IMG/VR virus record: IMGVR_UViG_3300020723_000030
Location: 1-21,629 of that record
Length of the DNA: 21,629 nt
From: a virus
Direction: 5' to 3' (one strand)
The notes under the pieces are model-generated. The model saw only the letters and a program-made list of their open reading frames with translations. It did no database searches and was not told the origin of the DNA. Numbering within the stretch: position 1 is the stretch's first letter; each line of letters starts with the position of its first letter. The position numbers and the translations under genes were made by a program. Below are positions 2 to 17,712 of this stretch, one piece after another.

Positions 2-817
2 ATCACACAATACACAGATGCTTTAGCAGAACTAAAAGCATACCCACGTATTCTAGTGCCTTCAAACCTTGATGGTGACGTTGATTTACGTGCAGGCGGT
101 GTTACTACTTGGGATATCAACGAACCCAATGGTAAACCAGCAGAATGGGCTACAATAGGCGATTACAAGATGGGCATGGAGTTAATCGCTAATAAGAAGG
201 AAATGATTAACGAAGCGTTCTTCGTTCCTATGTTTAAGATGCTAGGTTCAGATCCTCTTATTGATAAGAAGATGACTGCCTATGAAATCTCGCAGCGTCT
301 TGCAGAAAAACTAGAACAGTTCACACCAGTATTTGACCGCCGTGTAACAGAATTTTTAAACCCATTACTACGCAGAGTATTTGGTATTTTATATCGTCAG
401 GGTAAGTTTGGTCAGGCTCCAGAGTCATTACTTGTACAATCTGGTGTTAATACAAAAGGTTTAGCCTTACCTGAAATCACAATTACAAGCAGAATCAGTC
501 TTGCATTAAAGGCATTACAGAATCGTGGTACTGAACAAGCAGTACAGTTCTTACAGCCTATTATGCAATTCAAGCCAGAAGTGGCAGACAACTTTGATTT
601 AGATAAGATGATGCGGAACTACGCCATGAACTCAGGAATGAACGCTGATTTATTCCGAGATGAACGTTCCGTTGCAGCAATACGTCAACAACGCATGAAG
701 TTACAACAGCAACAACAAGCTCTCCAAGCTGCTGAACAACTTGGTAAAGCTGGTAAGGGATTAGGTGGCTCACCTGATTTTGTACAAGATGCTGCTAAGA
801 ACGCCATGCAGCAATAA
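2..817 (+). CDS. Portal (head-to-tail connector) protein, C-terminal part
   Basis: This is the C-terminal 271 residues of a podovirus portal protein; the frame is open to the left edge, so the true start lies outside the window (the GTG at 56 is internal). Portals form the dodecameric ring at one capsid vertex through which DNA is packaged and ejected and to which the tail binds. The visible sequence has the late part of the head-tail connector family: a helix with MTAYEISQRLAEKLEQ at fragment residues 91-106, then TPVFDRRVTEFLNPLLRRVF, matching the family pattern 'MTAxEI..R..EKl..l.PvfgRl..E.L.PLi.RvF'. The C-terminus is glutamine-rich (fragment residues about 220-245), typical of portal tails that project into the head. 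It opens the head-assembly operon. The family is fairly certain; the exact subfamily (T7 gp8-like or BPP-1-like) is not. Confidence 0.87.
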   Translation: MTQYTDALAELKAYPRILVPSNLDGDVDLRAGGVTTWDINEPNGKPAEWATIGDYKMGMELIANKKEMINEAFFVPMFKMLGSDPLIDKKMTAYEISQRLAEKLEQFTPVFDRRVTEFLNPLLRRVFGILYRQGKFGQAPESLLVQSGVNTKGLALPEITITSRISLALKALQNRGTEQAVQFLQPIMQFKPEVADNFDLDKMMRNYAMNSGMNADLFRDERSVAAIRQQRMKLQQQQQALQAAEQLGKAGKGLGGSPDFVQDAAKNAMQQ

Positions 818-2006: not shown

Positions 2007-2995
2007 TCCCACGCACGCCTTTGTATGATTCAATCACAGGCGATGCACCTGCTGGTGGATCTGCTCCTGCTCTGAATCTAGCTCCTACGCCAGTAGAAGC
2101 AAACGTACCTGCTCTTAATCAAACTGCACCTGCAACACAGACAACTGCGTCTGCTGTTAAAGAACCATTTTATAAGAGCTTTATTAATGCTGATGGTACA
2201 CTAAACCATAAAGCATTAGACAATTTACCCGAACACCACACATCGCTTAAGAATACATTAGCACGTCAAAAGACGTTTGATGATGTATTAACAGTGATGG
2301 CTAATCAGCAAACACTTGCTGGTAAAAAAGGTCTAGCACCTTTACCAGCTAATGCTGCACCTGAAGTTGTAGCGGAACGCAAGGCACTCCTCGATTCTAT
2401 AAACGGAGTACCTAAAGATCCCAAAGACTATGGCATCACAAAACCAGAAAACATAGCCAATGAACTTTGGAATGAGTCCCTAGCTAAGGGTGCAGCAGAA
2501 ATTGCTCACAAATATAGTGCATCACCGCAGATGCTTAAAGATCTTGTAGCTTTACAAACCGCAGAGCTACAAAAGCAAGTCGCAGCACAAGCAGAATACG
2601 AAAAGAACTTTTTTGCTACTCAGCAGAAAAACTTAGAAGCAACCCTGCGTAACGAGAATATTCCGTTAACCAAAGCACAAGAATTAGCAGAGCGTGGTGC
2701 TATGCGTTTAGGTTTAGATATGCAGAATCCAGAGCATCAAACATTAATGAAGAACAGCAATGTATTCTTAATGGCTATGCGTCATGCTATGACCACAATG
2801 GAAGATAAGTTTGTATCTGGTGAAGCTAAGGCTGGCATGGGCAACAACCCATTAGCTGAAGCTCGTGATATTGCTCATAACAAATCTAATCCTCTATACG
2901 ATGCCTTCTACAATTCGTCTAGTCCTCAAAATGCTATGGCAAAGGCTCGTTACAAGTCTCTTATGGAAGAAGCTGGTAAGAGAGGAATGAGATAA
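2003..2995 (+). CDS. Putative capsid scaffolding protein
   Basis: A 330-residue protein with the composition and position of a phage scaffold. Residues 1-55 are rich in Ala, Pro and Thr and look disordered. A KDPKDYGITKPE turn lies near residue 135. The remainder is largely helical and rich in Ala, Gln, Glu and Lys (about residues 145-330). It ends in a strongly basic helix (KARYKSLMEEAGKRGMR), like the C-terminal capsid-binding segment of known scaffolds. Scaffolds line the inside of the procapsid, guide coat assembly and leave before or during packaging. The gene starts by an ATGA overlap with the previous gene and lies upstream of the capsid, the usual order. No protease motif (Ser/His/Asp triad) was noticed, so a fused protease is unlikely. 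The assignment rests on composition and synteny rather than a sharp motif. Confidence 0.72.
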   Translation: MIPRTPLYDSITGDAPAGGSAPALNLAPTPVEANVPALNQTAPATQTTASAVKEPFYKSFINADGTLNHKALDNLPEHHTSLKNTLARQKTFDDVLTVMANQQTLAGKKGLAPLPANAAPEVVAERKALLDSINGVPKDPKDYGITKPENIANELWNESLAKGAAEIAHKYSASPQMLKDLVALQTAELQKQVAAQAEYEKNFFATQQKNLEATLRNENIPLTKAQELAERGAMRLGLDMQNPEHQTLMKNSNVFLMAMRHAMTTMEDKFVSGEAKAGMGNNPLAEARDIAHNKSNPLYDAFYNSSSPQNAMAKARYKSLMEEAGKRGMR

Positions 2996-3309
2996 TGAAG
3001 ATGAAAATACCACGTCCTTTAAAGGACAACTTGATTGCCAGACCAGTTGAGGAAACTAATAAACAAGGCTTGCTGATCATTCCACCAAACTATCAACAAG
3101 CACTAAGAACGCATTTTAGATGCGTTGTAGTAGGATCTGGACCCTTATCTAAAGAAATGGCACCTGTCGGAAGCATTATTCATGTGTCCGAATCATGGGG
3201 TGAGAAATTTATTTATGAGGGTAATATGTTTATCTGTGGTCGCTTACGTGATATCAATGGTGTTATTGATGGTGAGGCATTGACAATACCAGAACATCTC
3301 CTAAGTTAA
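2995..3309 (+). CDS. GroES-like co-chaperonin
   Basis: A 104-residue protein that reads like a divergent GroES/Cpn10. The start IPRPLKDNLIARPVEET matches the GroES opening 'iRPLhDRViVkr.e.et'. QGLLIIP (residues 24-30) sits where GroES has GGIVL, so LLI at 26-28 would be the GroEL-binding hydrophobic tripeptide of the mobile loop. VVVGSGP (44-50) matches 'G.VlAVG.G'. APVGSIIHVSESWGEKF (56-72) matches 'vkvGD.Vif...G.k' and YEGNMFIC aligns with the last strands. GroES caps the GroEL folding chamber; phage versions (T4 gp31, RB49 CocO) replace GroES so that the coat protein fits. The gene overlaps the scaffold stop by one base (TAATG), has a GAGG ribosome binding site and lies two genes before the capsid gene, the expected client. 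There is an extra 10-15 residues at the C-terminus. ATG codons at 2995 and 3001 are both possible; the first is better placed for the ribosome binding site. Confidence 0.78.
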   Translation: MKMKIPRPLKDNLIARPVEETNKQGLLIIPPNYQQALRTHFRCVVVGSGPLSKEMAPVGSIIHVSESWGEKFIYEGNMFICGRLRDINGVIDGEALTIPEHLLS

Positions 3310-3824: not shown

Positions 3825-3858
3825 CGATCATTTGTCGAACAATAGTGTTCGATGATCG
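3825..3858 (+). promoter_or_regulatory. Bulged hairpin in the capsid leader
   Basis: CGATCA at 3825-3830 pairs with TGATCG at 3853-3858 and TCGAACA at 3835-3841 pairs with TGTTCGA at 3846-3852. This gives 13 base pairs with a 4-base bulge (TTTG) and a 4-base loop (ATAG). There is no T-run after it, so it is not a terminator. It could be an mRNA-stabilising 5' structure, an RNA-processing site or a protein-binding site. Confidence 0.5.
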
Positions 3859-3926
3859 ATCCCATTTGGGACAACCGAGGAGCGAACGTACAATCCGTAC
3901 GGCATATCGCTGTACAAAACCTCAAT

Positions 3927-3932
3927 TATAAT
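3927..3932 (+). promoter_or_regulatory. Possible -10 element of the capsid promoter
   Basis: A perfect TATAAT hexamer ends 6 bases before the capsid ATG at 3939. No good -35 hexamer lies 16-18 bases upstream (that stretch reads around CATATCGC). If used, transcription would begin at or near the ATG itself, giving a leaderless capsid mRNA, which would fit the absence of a Shine-Dalgarno sequence. In an AT-rich region the hexamer may also be chance. Confidence 0.28.
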
Positions 3933-3938
3933 ACTCTC

Positions 3939-4853
3939 ATGGCTGGTGCAATATTCTCACTACCTCCCCATTACGAGACAGCGTTCGACGACATTTGGCG
4001 TGAAATCATGGCCCAACAGGTCGATCACCGTCTCGCAGGGATGTACACTTCAGACAATGTAAATGGTAACCAAAAGAGATACGATCAAATCGGTGATCAA
4101 TCTTACGCTCTGCGTCAGATCACTGCTCGTGCTCAAAAGAGTGAACCATCTGACATTCCTACGTTTTTCCGTTGGGTACGTCCTCGTCCTTACGATAAAA
4201 CAACTTGGATCGACTACTTCGATCATATCCTTCTTGGTCAGCTCCCTGACCCACAGTCTCCAACAGCAAAGCAACACGCTATCGCTGCTAACAGACAGAA
4301 GGATATCATTCTTATCAATGCTCTATTAGGCACAAACTATACTGGTGCTCAAGGAACAACAGCTACAACGCTGCCTTCTTCACAGCAAGTTGGTGTTACT
4401 TATGGATCAGGCTCTGCAAACTCAGGTCTGCAACTCGCTAAATTAACTCAGACATCCTACGTTATGGATTCTAATGATGTTAAAGAAGAGGGTCGTGTAT
4501 TTGTTTATTCTGCAAAGCAATTAAACAACTTAATCACTAACGTTGATCAAGTTAACAGCGTACTTTATAACGATGTGCGTGCTCTACGTGACGGTATGAT
4601 CCGTGACTTCATGGGCTTCCATTTCGTTCGTACTCAGTTGGTTCCTTACCAAGCTGGTTCAACAACAATCCGTACCTGCGTCGCTTACCAAAAAGACTTC
4701 CTCTTAATGGGCATCGGCGAAGATGTACGTACACACATCGATATTCTTCCAATGCAAAGCCATGCAATTCAAGTGCGTACTGCACTTTTAATGGATGCTA
4801 CTCGCTTAGAAGAAAAGGGTGTCGTCCAAGTAAATTGCGACGAATCCGTATAA
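3939..4853 (+). CDS. Major capsid protein
   Basis: A 304-residue major coat protein that would form the icosahedral shell. The start at 3939 gives MAGAIFSLPPHYETAFDDIW, matching the typical 'MA...LP.HYv..F.d.' opening of the podovirus capsid family; the longer frame from ATG 3852 adds 29 residues with no such likeness. Family-typical stretches follow: a charged N-arm (NGNQKRYDQIG), FFRWVRPRPYDKTTWIDYFD, then LPDPQSPTAKQHAIAANRQK leading into the long spine-like helix. The DPQSP-AxAAxRQxD pattern is characteristic of this capsid group. No Shine-Dalgarno sequence is visible. Codons end in C much more often than in the internal virion protein genes, as expected for the most abundant virion protein. 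The gene is bracketed, with the next one, between two strong terminators. I expect an HK97-type fold; this is inference from the family. Confidence 0.88.
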   Translation: MAGAIFSLPPHYETAFDDIWREIMAQQVDHRLAGMYTSDNVNGNQKRYDQIGDQSYALRQITARAQKSEPSDIPTFFRWVRPRPYDKTTWIDYFDHILLGQLPDPQSPTAKQHAIAANRQKDIILINALLGTNYTGAQGTTATTLPSSQQVGVTYGSGSANSGLQLAKLTQTSYVMDSNDVKEEGRVFVYSAKQLNNLITNVDQVNSVLYNDVRALRDGMIRDFMGFHFVRTQLVPYQAGSTTIRTCVAYQKDFLLMGIGEDVRTHIDILPMQSHAIQVRTALLMDATRLEEKGVVQVNCDESV

Positions 4854-12579: not shown

Positions 12580-15500
12580 ATGGCTATTGATTCTACAACG
12601 TCTAGTACACAAAATACTAGCAACGAAACGTATTTTGATCCATCTGTTGTAAAAATAGGTGATAAGGAAATTAACCGACCTTATGATATGGGTGGAAAAA
12701 ATGAATTTGATCCATCAACTGCTGTAAAAGTACAAGATGCAGAAAAACCCAAAATTGGTAAACCTGTAGATACACAAGAATTTGATCCATCAACTGCTGT
12801 AAAAGTTGAAGAACCTAAAGAACAAGATACTACATGGAATGATATATATGGTGGTCGCTATACACCACAGCAGAAACTCATTTTAGATAAAATAAAAGAT
12901 CCAGAGGAAAAAAATAAAGTAGTTAATCAATCTTTTGCTCAATATTTAATGCCAGAATTGTCTAATGATACTATAAGACAAAATTGGCCTTCAATAAGAT
13001 CTGCTATTGGTAAATCTAAACTTAGATTATCTGAAGAAGAATTAAAAAATCTAAGTGATACTAAACTAGCTAATGAAATTAATAACTCTTTAGTTACCGA
13101 AAAATATGGTGAAATTAAACCATTTACTTGGCCTAAAGCATTATTATCTGTGCCTGCAAACGTAGCATATCAAACGCAACATAGTATGTTTTGGAAAGGT
13201 TTAAATAAACCTGGGTTAGATATAAAAAAAGCTACAGCAGAAGATTTCAAAACATTACCAGATGAAGTACCACAAGAATATTTAGATGATCCTACTGGTA
13301 CAGGCTGGATTGCAAGTCCTGCAATAACAGCAGGTGCTTATAATATAGCTGCTGGTTTAATAGAAGGAACTTCTAGCTTAAAAGGTATTTTAGAAACTTA
13401 CGCTTTAGGTTCATTAAGTAAATTAAAAGAAGGTGTGCAAGTTGCAGCAGAAACTAGTAAGGCTGCCAGTGAATCTTTGGCTATTGCACAAGCAGAAAGA
13501 GCTGCACCAGAAGTTATAGCTGAAGCTGCTACAAATGTAGCAAATGCACAACAAAAGTTTGATATAACTAAAAAGCTATTATTAGGCACAAATGCTTACT
13601 TTGTGGCTACTATGGGCAAAACTGCTTATGATGCAGATAAAAATTTAATTTCTACAGTAAAAGATCCTAACGTTCCTACTGAAGATAAAATATCCGCAGT
13701 TGGTTCTGCACTTTTAGGAACAGTAGCTGCAACCGCTACAGTTTTAGATGGTGCATTAAATTACATAGATGTTGGTAAAGCTACTAAATTTGCTAATGAA
13801 GCCTATGGTTTAAAAGCCTCTGAATTAGCAACAAAAGCAATGCAAGAAGCATTGTTATCTGCGACAATAGAAGAACAAGCAGCATGGCAAAACGTGGCTG
13901 ATCATTATGATGAATTACAACACTTTGAAAATGGTCCAGAAACTTGGCCTTCTCGTGGTGATCTTGGCGGTATAAAAACTAATGCAGAATCATTTGAAGA
14001 TTTATTACCAGAAGAACAACAACAACCAGTTGTTAGAGATAGACCACCAACAGCATTAGAAAAAAAATATGATGGTACTGCATTAAAAAACGCAGTTGGT
14101 GAATTAGAAAGATTAGACGCATCAGGTGAAGCATTTACACCTGCTGAAGAACGTGCAATGGCTCCACGTTGGATACAAGCAGGTGAAGTATTATCAAAAG
14201 ATCCTAGTGCTGGTGCTGTATTAACAGAAAGATTAAAAAACAATCCAAACATTGGATTATCTGATGATCAATCTGCATTACTTTTAAGACACAAAGTACA
14301 ACTTAAAAACGCTTTAAATTCACAAATAGATATTATTAATGATTTTAGCAAAACTTCACAAGAACGAGCATTAGCTGCCAACGAAGCGTATAAATTAAGT
14401 GATCAATTAGTTGAATTTTTAGATGCTGTAAAACGTCGTGGAAGTGAATGGGGACGTGAAGGTAGATGGAGACAAGCTATGGCACAAGAAGATTACACTT
14501 TTGCCACACAATCTACATTATTACGTGCTGCTAAAAAAGGTGCTGAATTAACACCAATAGAAATAGAAACTTTAGCTAAACAAACATCAGAATTAGAGCA
14601 AGCACAAGCAGAATACGATTCATCTGCTAGAGCTGATTTAAAGCAAACTCCAGAAGATACAGTACAAAAGTTTGTTGAAGAAAATAAACCTACTAAAAAG
14701 AAAAATCCTAAAACAAGTAGGACTGAAACATTACGTAAAAAATTATCTGAAACGGCAGAAAAGTCTCGTGCAGCACTAGAAGAAATTAAAAAAGGCGGTC
14801 GTTTATTTGATATACAAGGAGTAGGACCAGAAGCAGCTTATCACGTTGCAGTAATAGGTGCAGATAAAATATATTCTACAGGTTTAGATTTTGTTAAGTG
14901 GTCTGGTGAAATGATTAAAGAGTTTGGTGAAAACATTAAACCGTTTTTAAACAAATTCTGGGAAGATTCTAAATCTAAGTATTTTGTAGAGCATAGAGAA
15001 GCAGCAACCGAGTTATTATCAAACGCACATGAAGTTGGTGATTTATCAACTATTGGAAGTATAGCTAAAGAATTAGCTTTAGGCTTTGTTGCACAAGGAG
15101 AAGATAATGCTAAAAATTTAATCAAATCTGTATTTGAAGAATTAAAAAAAGGCGTACCTGATATAACAGAACGTCAAACAGCAGAAGCTATTTCTGGTTA
15201 CGGAAAATATCGCAAATTAAGCAAAAATGAAATTGTTGCTAAGTTAAGAGATTTACAAGCACAGCAACGTTTACAACTTTCTTTAGAAGATATTAAAGCT
15301 GGTAAAGCACCACCAAGACAAGGTTATGAAAGACGTGTACCTTCTGAAGAAGAAAAATCATTAGCACAGCAAGTTAAGGCTGCTCGTGAAGAAGCTGGAA
15401 TGGTTGTTAAAAAGAAAACCAAAGCAGCAGTTGATAAATTTAAAACTTTAGAAGCGTCATTAAGTAAAAGAATTAATGAGTTAACTAAACAGTTTGAAAC

Positions 15501-17712
15501 TGGTATTAAACCAGAAGGTAAAACAGCAGTTGAAGTACCTCAAAAAATACAAGATCTTAGAGATTTACGTGATCGTATTTCTTCAACGATAAAAGATCTT
15601 GAACCTACTGAACCAACAGAGGAAAAAGTTGTAACTCCAGAAAAAGAATTACAAAATAAAATAAAGGCATTAGATACTTCAATTTCTAAATTAGAAAGTG
15701 AATTACAAGAAGGTAAAATAAGACCAGATGAAAAAGAGCCTTCTAAAGTAACAAGTCCTGAATTAGAAGAAAAACAAAAGTATTATCAAAGCCTTAAAGA
15801 TTTTAGGAAAGAGTTACGTGATTTAGAAAAACCTAAACCAGAACCTGTAGTAGAAAAAACTCCAGAAGAAAGACTTAACGAGAAACGTCAAAAGTATCTA
15901 AAAAAGCAAATAGATGATTTACAACGTCAAATAGATACCAGAGTAAAAGATGCTAATACTAAAACATCGCCTAGTTACAATGCAGACACAGAAGCATTAC
16001 AAGCAGAACGTGATGAATTAAAAGCAAAGTATGATGAGATATTCAAAAAGGCAGGTTTATCAGATTTAGAAAGAGAAAATCGTTATAACACGTATTTAGA
16101 TAGCAAAATTAAACGTTTAGAAGAAAAAATAAGAAATAACGATTTTGAAGAAGAAGCTAAAAAACCACCATTACAATTAAGTAAACAAACTTTAGAAAAG
16201 AAAGCTAAAGTAGGACAGTTACAAACAGAAATAACACTTAATCGTGAAAAAGCTCGTTTAGCATCTAGATCAAAAGGATTAAAATTATTAACCGCAGCTA
16301 GCGATATAGCACGAGCTTCAGCATTATCTGGTTTAAGTATATTCGGTAAATTGTTTTCTTTTGGTGTTGGACGTTTAATTGAAACTGGTTTAGCAGAACC
16401 TGCTGGAATTATATTAAAACAAGTGCCTGGTTTAAGAGACTTGATGGCGGCTGCTACTTTAGAAACAGGCGGTGAAACAAAAGCATTATCTACATATTAT
16501 ACTAAATGGGCTACAGAAGGATTTTCAGAAGGATGGAGTATATTAAAAAATAAAGGCGTAGGAAGATTAGATGCTGAATTAGGAAAACCTATTGAAAATG
16601 CAGTACCTGTTAAGTGGTATGATTATTTTGGTATTGCACACAAAGCAGCAAAAGCACCTGAGTTCGTAGCTAGATTTAATGTCAATTTAGAACGTGGATT
16701 TGCTGACGCTATTGCTAAAAAACAGGATTTATCTGATGAATTTGTACAAGGTGCTATTAGGAAACAAGCGTATGACAGTGCTGCTTCTGAAGTCTTAAAA
16801 GAAAATAGTGATTTTGCTAATTGGGTAAAAAGAATAGAAGCAAATGCTTTAGAAAAAAAACCTGATCTTACACCAGAAGAAGCTGCAAAATTAGTTGTAG
16901 GAACTGGTATTAGGATTTTTCTAACTAAAGGTATTGTTCGTGCTTCTGCTAATTATGTTTCACAAGCTATAGAAAGAACACCTGCTTATTTACTTACTGC
17001 TGGTGTTTATAAAACTATTTATGCTTATAGAGCTGGATTAGAAAATATACCGCCAGCATCATTAAATGCTATAGCTAAAATGTGGAAAGTCGGAGCAGTA
17101 GGTAGTGGCATATTTGCTTTAGGTGTAATGGATGCTTTATACAATCCACCAGAAAAACGCATTGGTGGTGGTTATTATCAACCAGGAAAACGTGATCCTA
17201 AAGATGTTCCATTTGGACACTTAAGAATAGGTGGTGTTGTATTACCGCACGTAGTTTCACACAATCTTTTATCTGAAGTATTCCAAATGGGTGAAACTTT
17301 TGCAAGAGTAGGTCTGCAAAAATTCAGTGAAGGTAAATTTAAAGATATGGATGAATTTACAAAAATTGCTGCTGGATTTGCTGCAAGTTATGCAGGTGTT
17401 GGTATAGAAGCACCTTTAGCTGGTCCAACATATAGAATTTCTCAAGATATTAGTCGTGCTGAGTATAATAAAATAGTACAAGATTCTTTTGCTAGTTTAA
17501 TACCAACCATGTCTGGTCAATTAGCACGTTTAGTTGATCCAAAAACAGGTAAAATTACTTATCCGTTAGATCCTGTAGTACGTGAACCTAAAGGTATTCC
17601 ACAAGCTATAGAGCAAGAAATACCCTTTGCTCGTCAATTAGTACCTTTAAAAAAACCAAAATATATGACAAATAGTTATATATCTAACGTACCCCAAATA
17701 GGTGAATATTAA
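12580..17712 (+). CDS. Giant internal virion protein (T7 gp16-like position)
   Basis: A 1710-residue protein, third and largest of the ejection set (T7 gp16 has about 1320). Residues 18-76 hold three FDPS repeats, two of them near-exact EFDPSTAVKV copies. Ala/Gly-rich weakly hydrophobic helices follow at about 250-300. A very Lys/Glu-rich, probably coiled-coil region spans about 690-1230. A hydrophobic helical region lies at about 1232-1285 (SIFGKLFSFGVGRLIE). Near the C-terminus are further hydrophobic helices (VGAVGSGIFALGVMDALY, about 1505-1522) and VPFGHLRIGGVVLPH. This C-terminal block resembles the 'large polyvalent protein' type domains injected with phage DNA. I find no clear lytic transglycosylase signature, which T7 gp16 has at its N-terminus. 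The role is inferred as an ejected channel protein crossing the inner membrane. The gene is AT-rich (17 G+C in 60 bases at 15541-15600). The start has no Shine-Dalgarno sequence. Confidence 0.68.
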   Translation: MAIDSTTSSTQNTSNETYFDPSVVKIGDKEINRPYDMGGKNEFDPSTAVKVQDAEKPKIGKPVDTQEFDPSTAVKVEEPKEQDTTWNDIYGGRYTPQQKLILDKIKDPEEKNKVVNQSFAQYLMPELSNDTIRQNWPSIRSAIGKSKLRLSEEELKNLSDTKLANEINNSLVTEKYGEIKPFTWPKALLSVPANVAYQTQHSMFWKGLNKPGLDIKKATAEDFKTLPDEVPQEYLDDPTGTGWIASPAITAGAYNIAAGLIEGTSSLKGILETYALGSLSKLKEGVQVAAETSKAASESLAIAQAERAAPEVIAEAATNVANAQQKFDITKKLLLGTNAYFVATMGKTAYDADKNLISTVKDPNVPTEDKISAVGSALLGTVAATATVLDGALNYIDVGKATKFANEAYGLKASELATKAMQEALLSATIEEQAAWQNVADHYDELQHFENGPETWPSRGDLGGIKTNAESFEDLLPEEQQQPVVRDRPPTALEKKYDGTALKNAVGELERLDASGEAFTPAEERAMAPRWIQAGEVLSKDPSAGAVLTERLKNNPNIGLSDDQSALLLRHKVQLKNALNSQIDIINDFSKTSQERALAANEAYKLSDQLVEFLDAVKRRGSEWGREGRWRQAMAQEDYTFATQSTLLRAAKKGAELTPIEIETLAKQTSELEQAQAEYDSSARADLKQTPEDTVQKFVEENKPTKKKNPKTSRTETLRKKLSETAEKSRAALEEIKKGGRLFDIQGVGPEAAYHVAVIGADKIYSTGLDFVKWSGEMIKEFGENIKPFLNKFWEDSKSKYFVEHREAATELLSNAHEVGDLSTIGSIAKELALGFVAQGEDNAKNLIKSVFEELKKGVPDITERQTAEAISGYGKYRKLSKNEIVAKLRDLQAQQRLQLSLEDIKAGKAPPRQGYERRVPSEEEKSLAQQVKAAREEAGMVVKKKTKAAVDKFKTLEASLSKRINELTKQFETGIKPEGKTAVEVPQKIQDLRDLRDRISSTIKDLEPTEPTEEKVVTPEKELQNKIKALDTSISKLESELQEGKIRPDEKEPSKVTSPELEEKQKYYQSLKDFRKELRDLEKPKPEPVVEKTPEERLNEKRQKYLKKQIDDLQRQIDTRVKDANTKTSPSYNADTEALQAERDELKAKYDEIFKKAGLSDLERENRYNTYLDSKIKRLEEKIRNNDFEEEAKKPPLQLSKQTLEKKAKVGQLQTEITLNREKARLASRSKGLKLLTAASDIARASALSGLSIFGKLFSFGVGRLIETGLAEPAGIILKQVPGLRDLMAAATLETGGETKALSTYYTKWATEGFSEGWSILKNKGVGRLDAELGKPIENAVPVKWYDYFGIAHKAAKAPEFVARFNVNLERGFADAIAKKQDLSDEFVQGAIRKQAYDSAASEVLKENSDFANWVKRIEANALEKKPDLTPEEAAKLVVGTGIRIFLTKGIVRASANYVSQAIERTPAYLLTAGVYKTIYAYRAGLENIPPASLNAIAKMWKVGAVGSGIFALGVMDALYNPPEKRIGGGYYQPGKRDPKDVPFGHLRIGGVVLPHVVSHNLLSEVFQMGETFARVGLQKFSEGKFKDMDEFTKIAAGFAASYAGVGIEAPLAGPTYRISQDISRAEYNKIVQDSFASLIPTMSGQLARLVDPKTGKITYPLDPVVREPKGIPQAIEQEIPFARQLVPLKKPKYMTNSYISNVPQIGEY
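12631..12806 (+). repeat. Three FDPS tandem motif repeats in the giant internal protein
   Basis: Two identical 29-base copies lie at 12703-12731 and 12778-12806 (period 75 bases, 25 residues), and a diverged copy begins at 12631. Each encodes (E/Y)FDPS followed by VK. The spacers are charged and look disordered, so the motif may be a repeated short binding peptide. Confidence 0.75.

Follow-up and report, generated by a model that had tools for sequence, protein, structure and literature searches.

A diverged Cpn10 (GroES-like) gene in the head operon of a podovirus

Phage-encoded co-chaperonins

Phage members of the Cpn10 (GroES) family are already well known, and include gp31 of T4, CocO of RB49, the proteins of phrog_3188 and those of HTVC023P-type phages. 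T4 gp31 has no roof loops and a wider opening (PMC6318259), and is needed to fold the capsid protein gp23 (PMC3012670). For HTVC023P-type podoviruses/pelagiphages, the published list of core genes includes GroES (PMC9599517). The gene described here lies in a window of 21,629 nucleotides (the whole stretch of DNA that was analysed, positions 1 to 21,629 of the IMG/VR virus record IMGVR_UViG_3300020723_000030); what is new about it is that it encodes a diverged member of the family and occupies a notable position in its operon.

The product of this gene resembles T4 gp31 and RB49 CocO in being a phage-encoded co-chaperonin with a predicted Cpn10 fold, and shares with gp31 the absence of roof loops. 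It differs from gp31 in its clearer sequence kinship to ordinary Cpn10s, in a mobile loop shorter than the 22 residues of gp31, and in a candidate client of 37 kDa rather than 56 kDa; its gene stands in the head operon beside a scaffold-like gene, whereas T4 gene 31 is found between rIII and cd, away from the head genes. Bacterial GroES and mitochondrial Hsp10 (PF00166) have the same fold and strand order as the window family, together with the PL.D start, a mobile loop in which an aliphatic tripeptide is followed by proline, and a C-terminal strand of the RxRDI type; members of the window family are about 22-32% identical to E. coli GroES. Unlike bacterial GroES, the window family has neither a roof hairpin (about 8-9 residues) nor a paired groEL gene. 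Other phage GroES genes (phrog_3188; the BFVD entries named 'co-chaperonin GroES') likewise encode Cpn10s and supply the nearest folds to the window model in the viral library, but the window clade scores weakly on PHROG and Pfam models and, unlike them, is operon-locked next to the scaffold-like gene.

The gene and its head operon

An open reading frame of 104 residues with an ATG start lies exactly where the sequence-only reading had placed a GroES-like gene, and its translation contains all four of the motifs quoted in that reading (RPLKD, QGLLI, VVVGSGP and VGSIIHVSESWGEKF; Table 1). This is a real gene. Purifying selection on it is strong, with pairwise dN/dS of 0.04-0.20 against near relatives; given that dS to the same relatives is at least 0.85, synonymous changes have been many and amino-acid changes few.

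Table 1. Features of the head operon, the Cpn10 gene and its relatives (window coordinates unless a contig is named)
Feature	Coordinates	Strand	Evidence and remarks
Portal (head-to-tail connector) gene, C-terminal part	56..817	+	PF12236 E 1.8e-35, profile positions 301-488 of 489; cut by window edge
Scaffold-like head assembly protein, 330 aa	2003..2995	+	phrog_3742 (function unknown) E 3.2e-9; gene lies between those of portal and capsid
Ribosome-binding-site-like AGAGGA	2981-2986	+	Read from sequence
TAATG overlap	Scaffold-like gene stop TAA 2993-2995; Cpn10 ATG 2995-2997	+	One base in common
Cpn10 (GroES-like) co-chaperonin gene, 104 aa, 11.6 kDa	2995..3309	+	Pfam, family profile, AF2 model, Foldseek
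Mobile-loop segment, about residues 22-39, NKQGLLIIPPNYQQALRT	3058..3111	+	HMMER register against solved Cpn10; low pLDDT
Hydrophobic tripeptide L27-I28-I29	3073-3081	+	HMMER alignments to solved Cpn10
Shortened roof region, residues 48-60, SGPLSKEMAPVGS	3136..3174	+	GroES roof hairpin absent
Putative small structural protein, 132 aa	3332..3730	+	Weak phrog_16886; relatives have a homologue between Cpn10 and the capsid gene
Major capsid protein, candidate client	3852..4853	+	PF19821 E 8.5e-49; phrog_3437 major head protein E 6.8e-44
Insertions directly behind Cpn10 gene	L028:724-4227; L106:5279-5899		Radical SAM, methyltransferase, other genes

The gene order is portal, three small genes, scaffold-like gene, Cpn10, 132-residue protein and capsid protein. 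Pfam and PHROG matches identify the flanking portal and capsid genes, which bears out the description of the locus as a podovirus head operon with the capsid gene two genes downstream of Cpn10. The position of the scaffold-like gene corresponds to that in HTVC010P-type phages, where some records name a putative protease; a tblastn search with the scaffold-like protein matched nothing in 50,697 phage records. The 132-residue protein may be a cement or decoration protein. The first ATG of the capsid reading frame (window 3852-3936) adds 28 residues relative to the start in relatives, and is doubtful as a start since L011, L028 and other contigs begin at the methionine equivalent to 3936. Further along the window, positions 12580-17712 encode a 1710-residue protein with no credible family match, at a place typical of large internal virion proteins. 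The 531-residue protein of positions 17797-19392 matches nothing in Pfam and, among the PHROGs, resembles one of unknown function over only part of its length.

Membership of the Cpn10 family

Taken alone, the window protein has a single Pfam match, to Cpn10 (PF00166; E 0.0028), which is full-length (profile positions 3-93 of 93) and at 18.1 bits falls below the gathering cut-off of 21.1; its sole PHROG match is to PHROG 3188, 'co-chaperonin GroES' (E 0.019). Its close relatives in IMG/VR share 55-100% identity, and further contigs were reached with the capsid protein as an anchor and then with a profile of the close Cpn10 family. This profile picks out a Cpn10-like reading frame upstream of the capsid gene in the diverged lineages L074/L075, L096, L097, L098, L099 and L100 (E 3e-7 to 9e-11). 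These six diverged syntenic homologues (23-36% identity) each pass the Pfam Cpn10 cut-off on their own (E 1.3e-5 to 1.2e-13), and a further scan added another homologue, L106. By our reading of the result tables, a homologue is present in 41 distinct IMG/VR contigs, at 23-100% identity. When a profile of 13 family members was run against the PDB, all 18 sequences found at E<=0.1 were co-chaperonins, the best match (9.6e-14) being the Cpn20 subunit of 7ekq. Judged by sequence, the window protein is thus a diverged member of the Cpn10 (GroES) family, as the sequence-only reading had proposed, and its clade is a coherent subfamily of phage Cpn10s that previously lay below threshold.

Single-sequence phmmer searches of the PDB placed PknB domains above GroES, all matches being weak; the PknB matches extend over residues 30-64 only, and were taken to be chance. 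The 50,697 phage records contained no tblastn match to the window Cpn10 gene and no Cpn10 matching the L028 homologue, while L099 gave one match, in an unannotated 5-kb faecal contig. A scan of a genome collection found no relative, and therefore points to no host for the phage. HTVC019P was considered as a possible GroES carrier, and no gene is annotated as such in its record.

Predicted fold, mobile loop and roof

The window protein is predicted to adopt the Cpn10 beta-barrel fold. Run without templates on a diverse alignment, AF2 returned a model with a pLDDT of 79, its five models being alike (76-79) and low confidence being limited to the ends and the mobile loop. All of the best 33 Foldseek matches in the PDB are co-chaperonins, T4 gp31 among them (probability 0.98-1.00, with 1.00 reached for Cpn10 and gp31). 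VIA superposed 65 residues of the model on Xanthomonas GroES (3nx6; Z 9.0, 2.2 A) and 63 on T4 gp31 in 2cgt (Z 7.4, 1.9 A); oxidoreductases that contain a GroES-like domain scored lower (Z about 6). Among the matches listed from the viral structure library (BFVD), every named one is a co-chaperonin or chaperonin. For the monomer, then, the GroES barrel and flexible loop anticipated from the motifs are both predicted. An earlier model, for which the alignment comprised 11 near-identical sequences, reached a pLDDT of only 55 and has been superseded; Foldseek gave no significant match for it, and re-inspection found several Cpn10s in the top rows (Z about 4).

HMMER alignments to solved Cpn10s set L27-I28-I29 against IVI (3nx6), LVI (1lep) and IVL (1wnr), and P30 against the proline that follows the tripeptide in many Cpn10s. 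Each of the aligned phage domains has an aliphatic residue, L, I or M, at positions 27 and 29. Confidence in the AF2 model is lowest in the loop, with pLDDT under 50 for residues 26-29 and averages of 54 and 61 across residues 21-40; the loop is about two residues longer than that of GroES by alignment register, not six. The QGLLI segment earlier read as a mobile loop is present within a region predicted to be flexible, but the tripeptide LLI had been taken one residue early and should be LII. As LII is like the IVI and LVI of ordinary GroES, the accompanying suggestion that an unusual tripeptide tunes affinity for GroEL is without basis.

The roof of the protein had been overlooked. All 13 of the 13 phage domains show a 9-column gap against the roof hairpin of E. 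coli GroES, and M. leprae Cpn10 also has extra residues in this region relative to the window protein, in whose AF2 model it is coil. By alignment, the loss of the roof is common to the whole window family. An equally short connection occurs at this position in the first domain of the Cpn20 chain of 7ekq; since both this domain and gp31 do without the hairpin, it is typical of Cpn10s but not essential to them. A joint MAFFT alignment with T4 gp31 was discarded, gp31 being out of register. Further along, W68, part of a clade-specific and almost invariant ESWGEKF block, aligns with Tyr71 of GroES and may line the cavity.

Coupling to the scaffold-like gene

The junction between the scaffold-like and Cpn10 genes, mostly with overlapping codons, recurs in L011, L028, L096, L100 and L106. 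In L028, radical SAM and methyltransferase genes (identified by Pfam) and two more reading frames stand between the Cpn10 gene and the homologue of the 132-residue protein, and in L106 a methyltransferase gene directly follows Cpn10; these insertions are possibly a modification cassette. Because they separate Cpn10 from the capsid gene, the bond of Cpn10 to the scaffold-like gene is the tighter one. L100 carries two tandem Cpn10 domains in the slot after its scaffold-like gene (L100:5144-5863, + strand), an arrangement like that of chloroplast Cpn20, itself a tandem co-chaperonin, whereas the window gene has a single domain.

Among capsid relatives at about 30% identity, no Cpn10 was detectable in the whole records of HTVC010P, Skadi-3 and two Manatee Spring phages, or in the portal-to-capsid stretch of L101. 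The capsid family thus needs no phage-encoded Cpn10 in general, and the Cpn10 gene marks one branch of it. L072 and L073, which at first looked like further capsid relatives lacking Cpn10, were dropped from this comparison, as neither contig holds the portal. Their gene order is different: in both, a reading frame that by eye resembles a small terminase stands directly before the 132-residue-type and capsid genes (L072:4173-6252; L073:689-2768). The contig end at L072:1-600 carries low-complexity repeats (GQLGGQLEG / GANLRDNL) that can be read through in several frames. No chaperonin gene (PF00118) was found in eight related phage contigs, which may be incomplete; the most likely partner of the phage protein is accordingly the host GroEL.

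Proposed role and alternatives

The product of the gene is probably a co-chaperonin with which the phage caps the GroEL of its host for the folding of head proteins, the capsid protein being the most likely one. If it works as GroES and T4 gp31 do, the protein would form a heptameric ring, and its seven mobile loops, each bearing L27-I28-I29, would dock on the apical domains of host GroEL and close the folding chamber. With the GroES roof hairpin absent, the dome of this lid is expected to be open at the top, like that of gp31. As the gene belongs to the head operon and its start codon overlaps the stop of the scaffold-like gene, the lid and the head proteins would be made together, late in infection. 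The most likely client is the major capsid protein, favoured by gene order (its gene is the second one downstream) and by the precedent of T4 gp23; other possible clients are the scaffold-like protein and the portal, which has a mass of about 63 kDa.

That one of these two, rather than the capsid protein, is the main client of the co-chaperonin seems rather unlikely. Such a reading draws on the direct coupling of the scaffold-like gene to Cpn10 in every lineage read, L028 included, and on the size of the portal, which is near the usual limit of the GroEL-GroES cage; the lambda portal, moreover, is a classic GroE client. Scaffold proteins, on the other hand, are usually soluble. Those phage co-chaperonins for which a client has been tested serve the capsid protein (gp31/gp23; PMC3012670).

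It is improbable that the protein, while keeping a Cpn10 fold, now serves the head as a structural or assembly component such as a cement or connector and has lost its function with GroEL. The flexible loop and hydrophobic tripeptide are kept family-wide, and a separate structural-looking gene, that of the 132-residue protein, already sits directly before the capsid gene. The location of Cpn10 among head genes and the near invariance of the clade-specific ESWGEKF block would suit a structural part, as would the missing roof hairpin, but gp31 is equally roofless and yet a true co-chaperonin. A protein that mainly retunes host GroEL, or blocks its use by the host or in defence, is very unlikely: a small GroEL-binding phage protein could displace GroES, but this gene is coupled into a late head operon and is not among early host-takeover genes. 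A merely fortuitous likeness to Cpn10, or membership of some unrelated head-completion family, is highly implausible as far as these methods reach: single-sequence scores are marginal and the first AF2 model was poor, but Cpn10 is the answer given alike by transitive homology, by the profile search and by the deeper model.

Implications of a roofless lid

Within the preferred reading of a lid for host GroEL, the absence of the roof calls for separate consideration. The open dome of gp31 is usually explained by its 56-kDa client; at 37.4 kDa, the capsid protein of the window would fit the ordinary GroEL-GroES cage, so that this size argument does not carry over. Tentatively, one podovirus clade may have a family of roofless lids, translationally coupled to the scaffold-like gene, that is dedicated to head proteins in need of no larger cage, although this is held with less than even confidence. 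If true, roof loss would have a purpose other than cage size, such as release through an open top or the recognition of clients. A roofless family with a 37-kDa capsid protein is a test case for separating roof loss from client size, and its fixed coupling to the scaffold-like gene offers a simple, testable link between the supply of the lid and head assembly.
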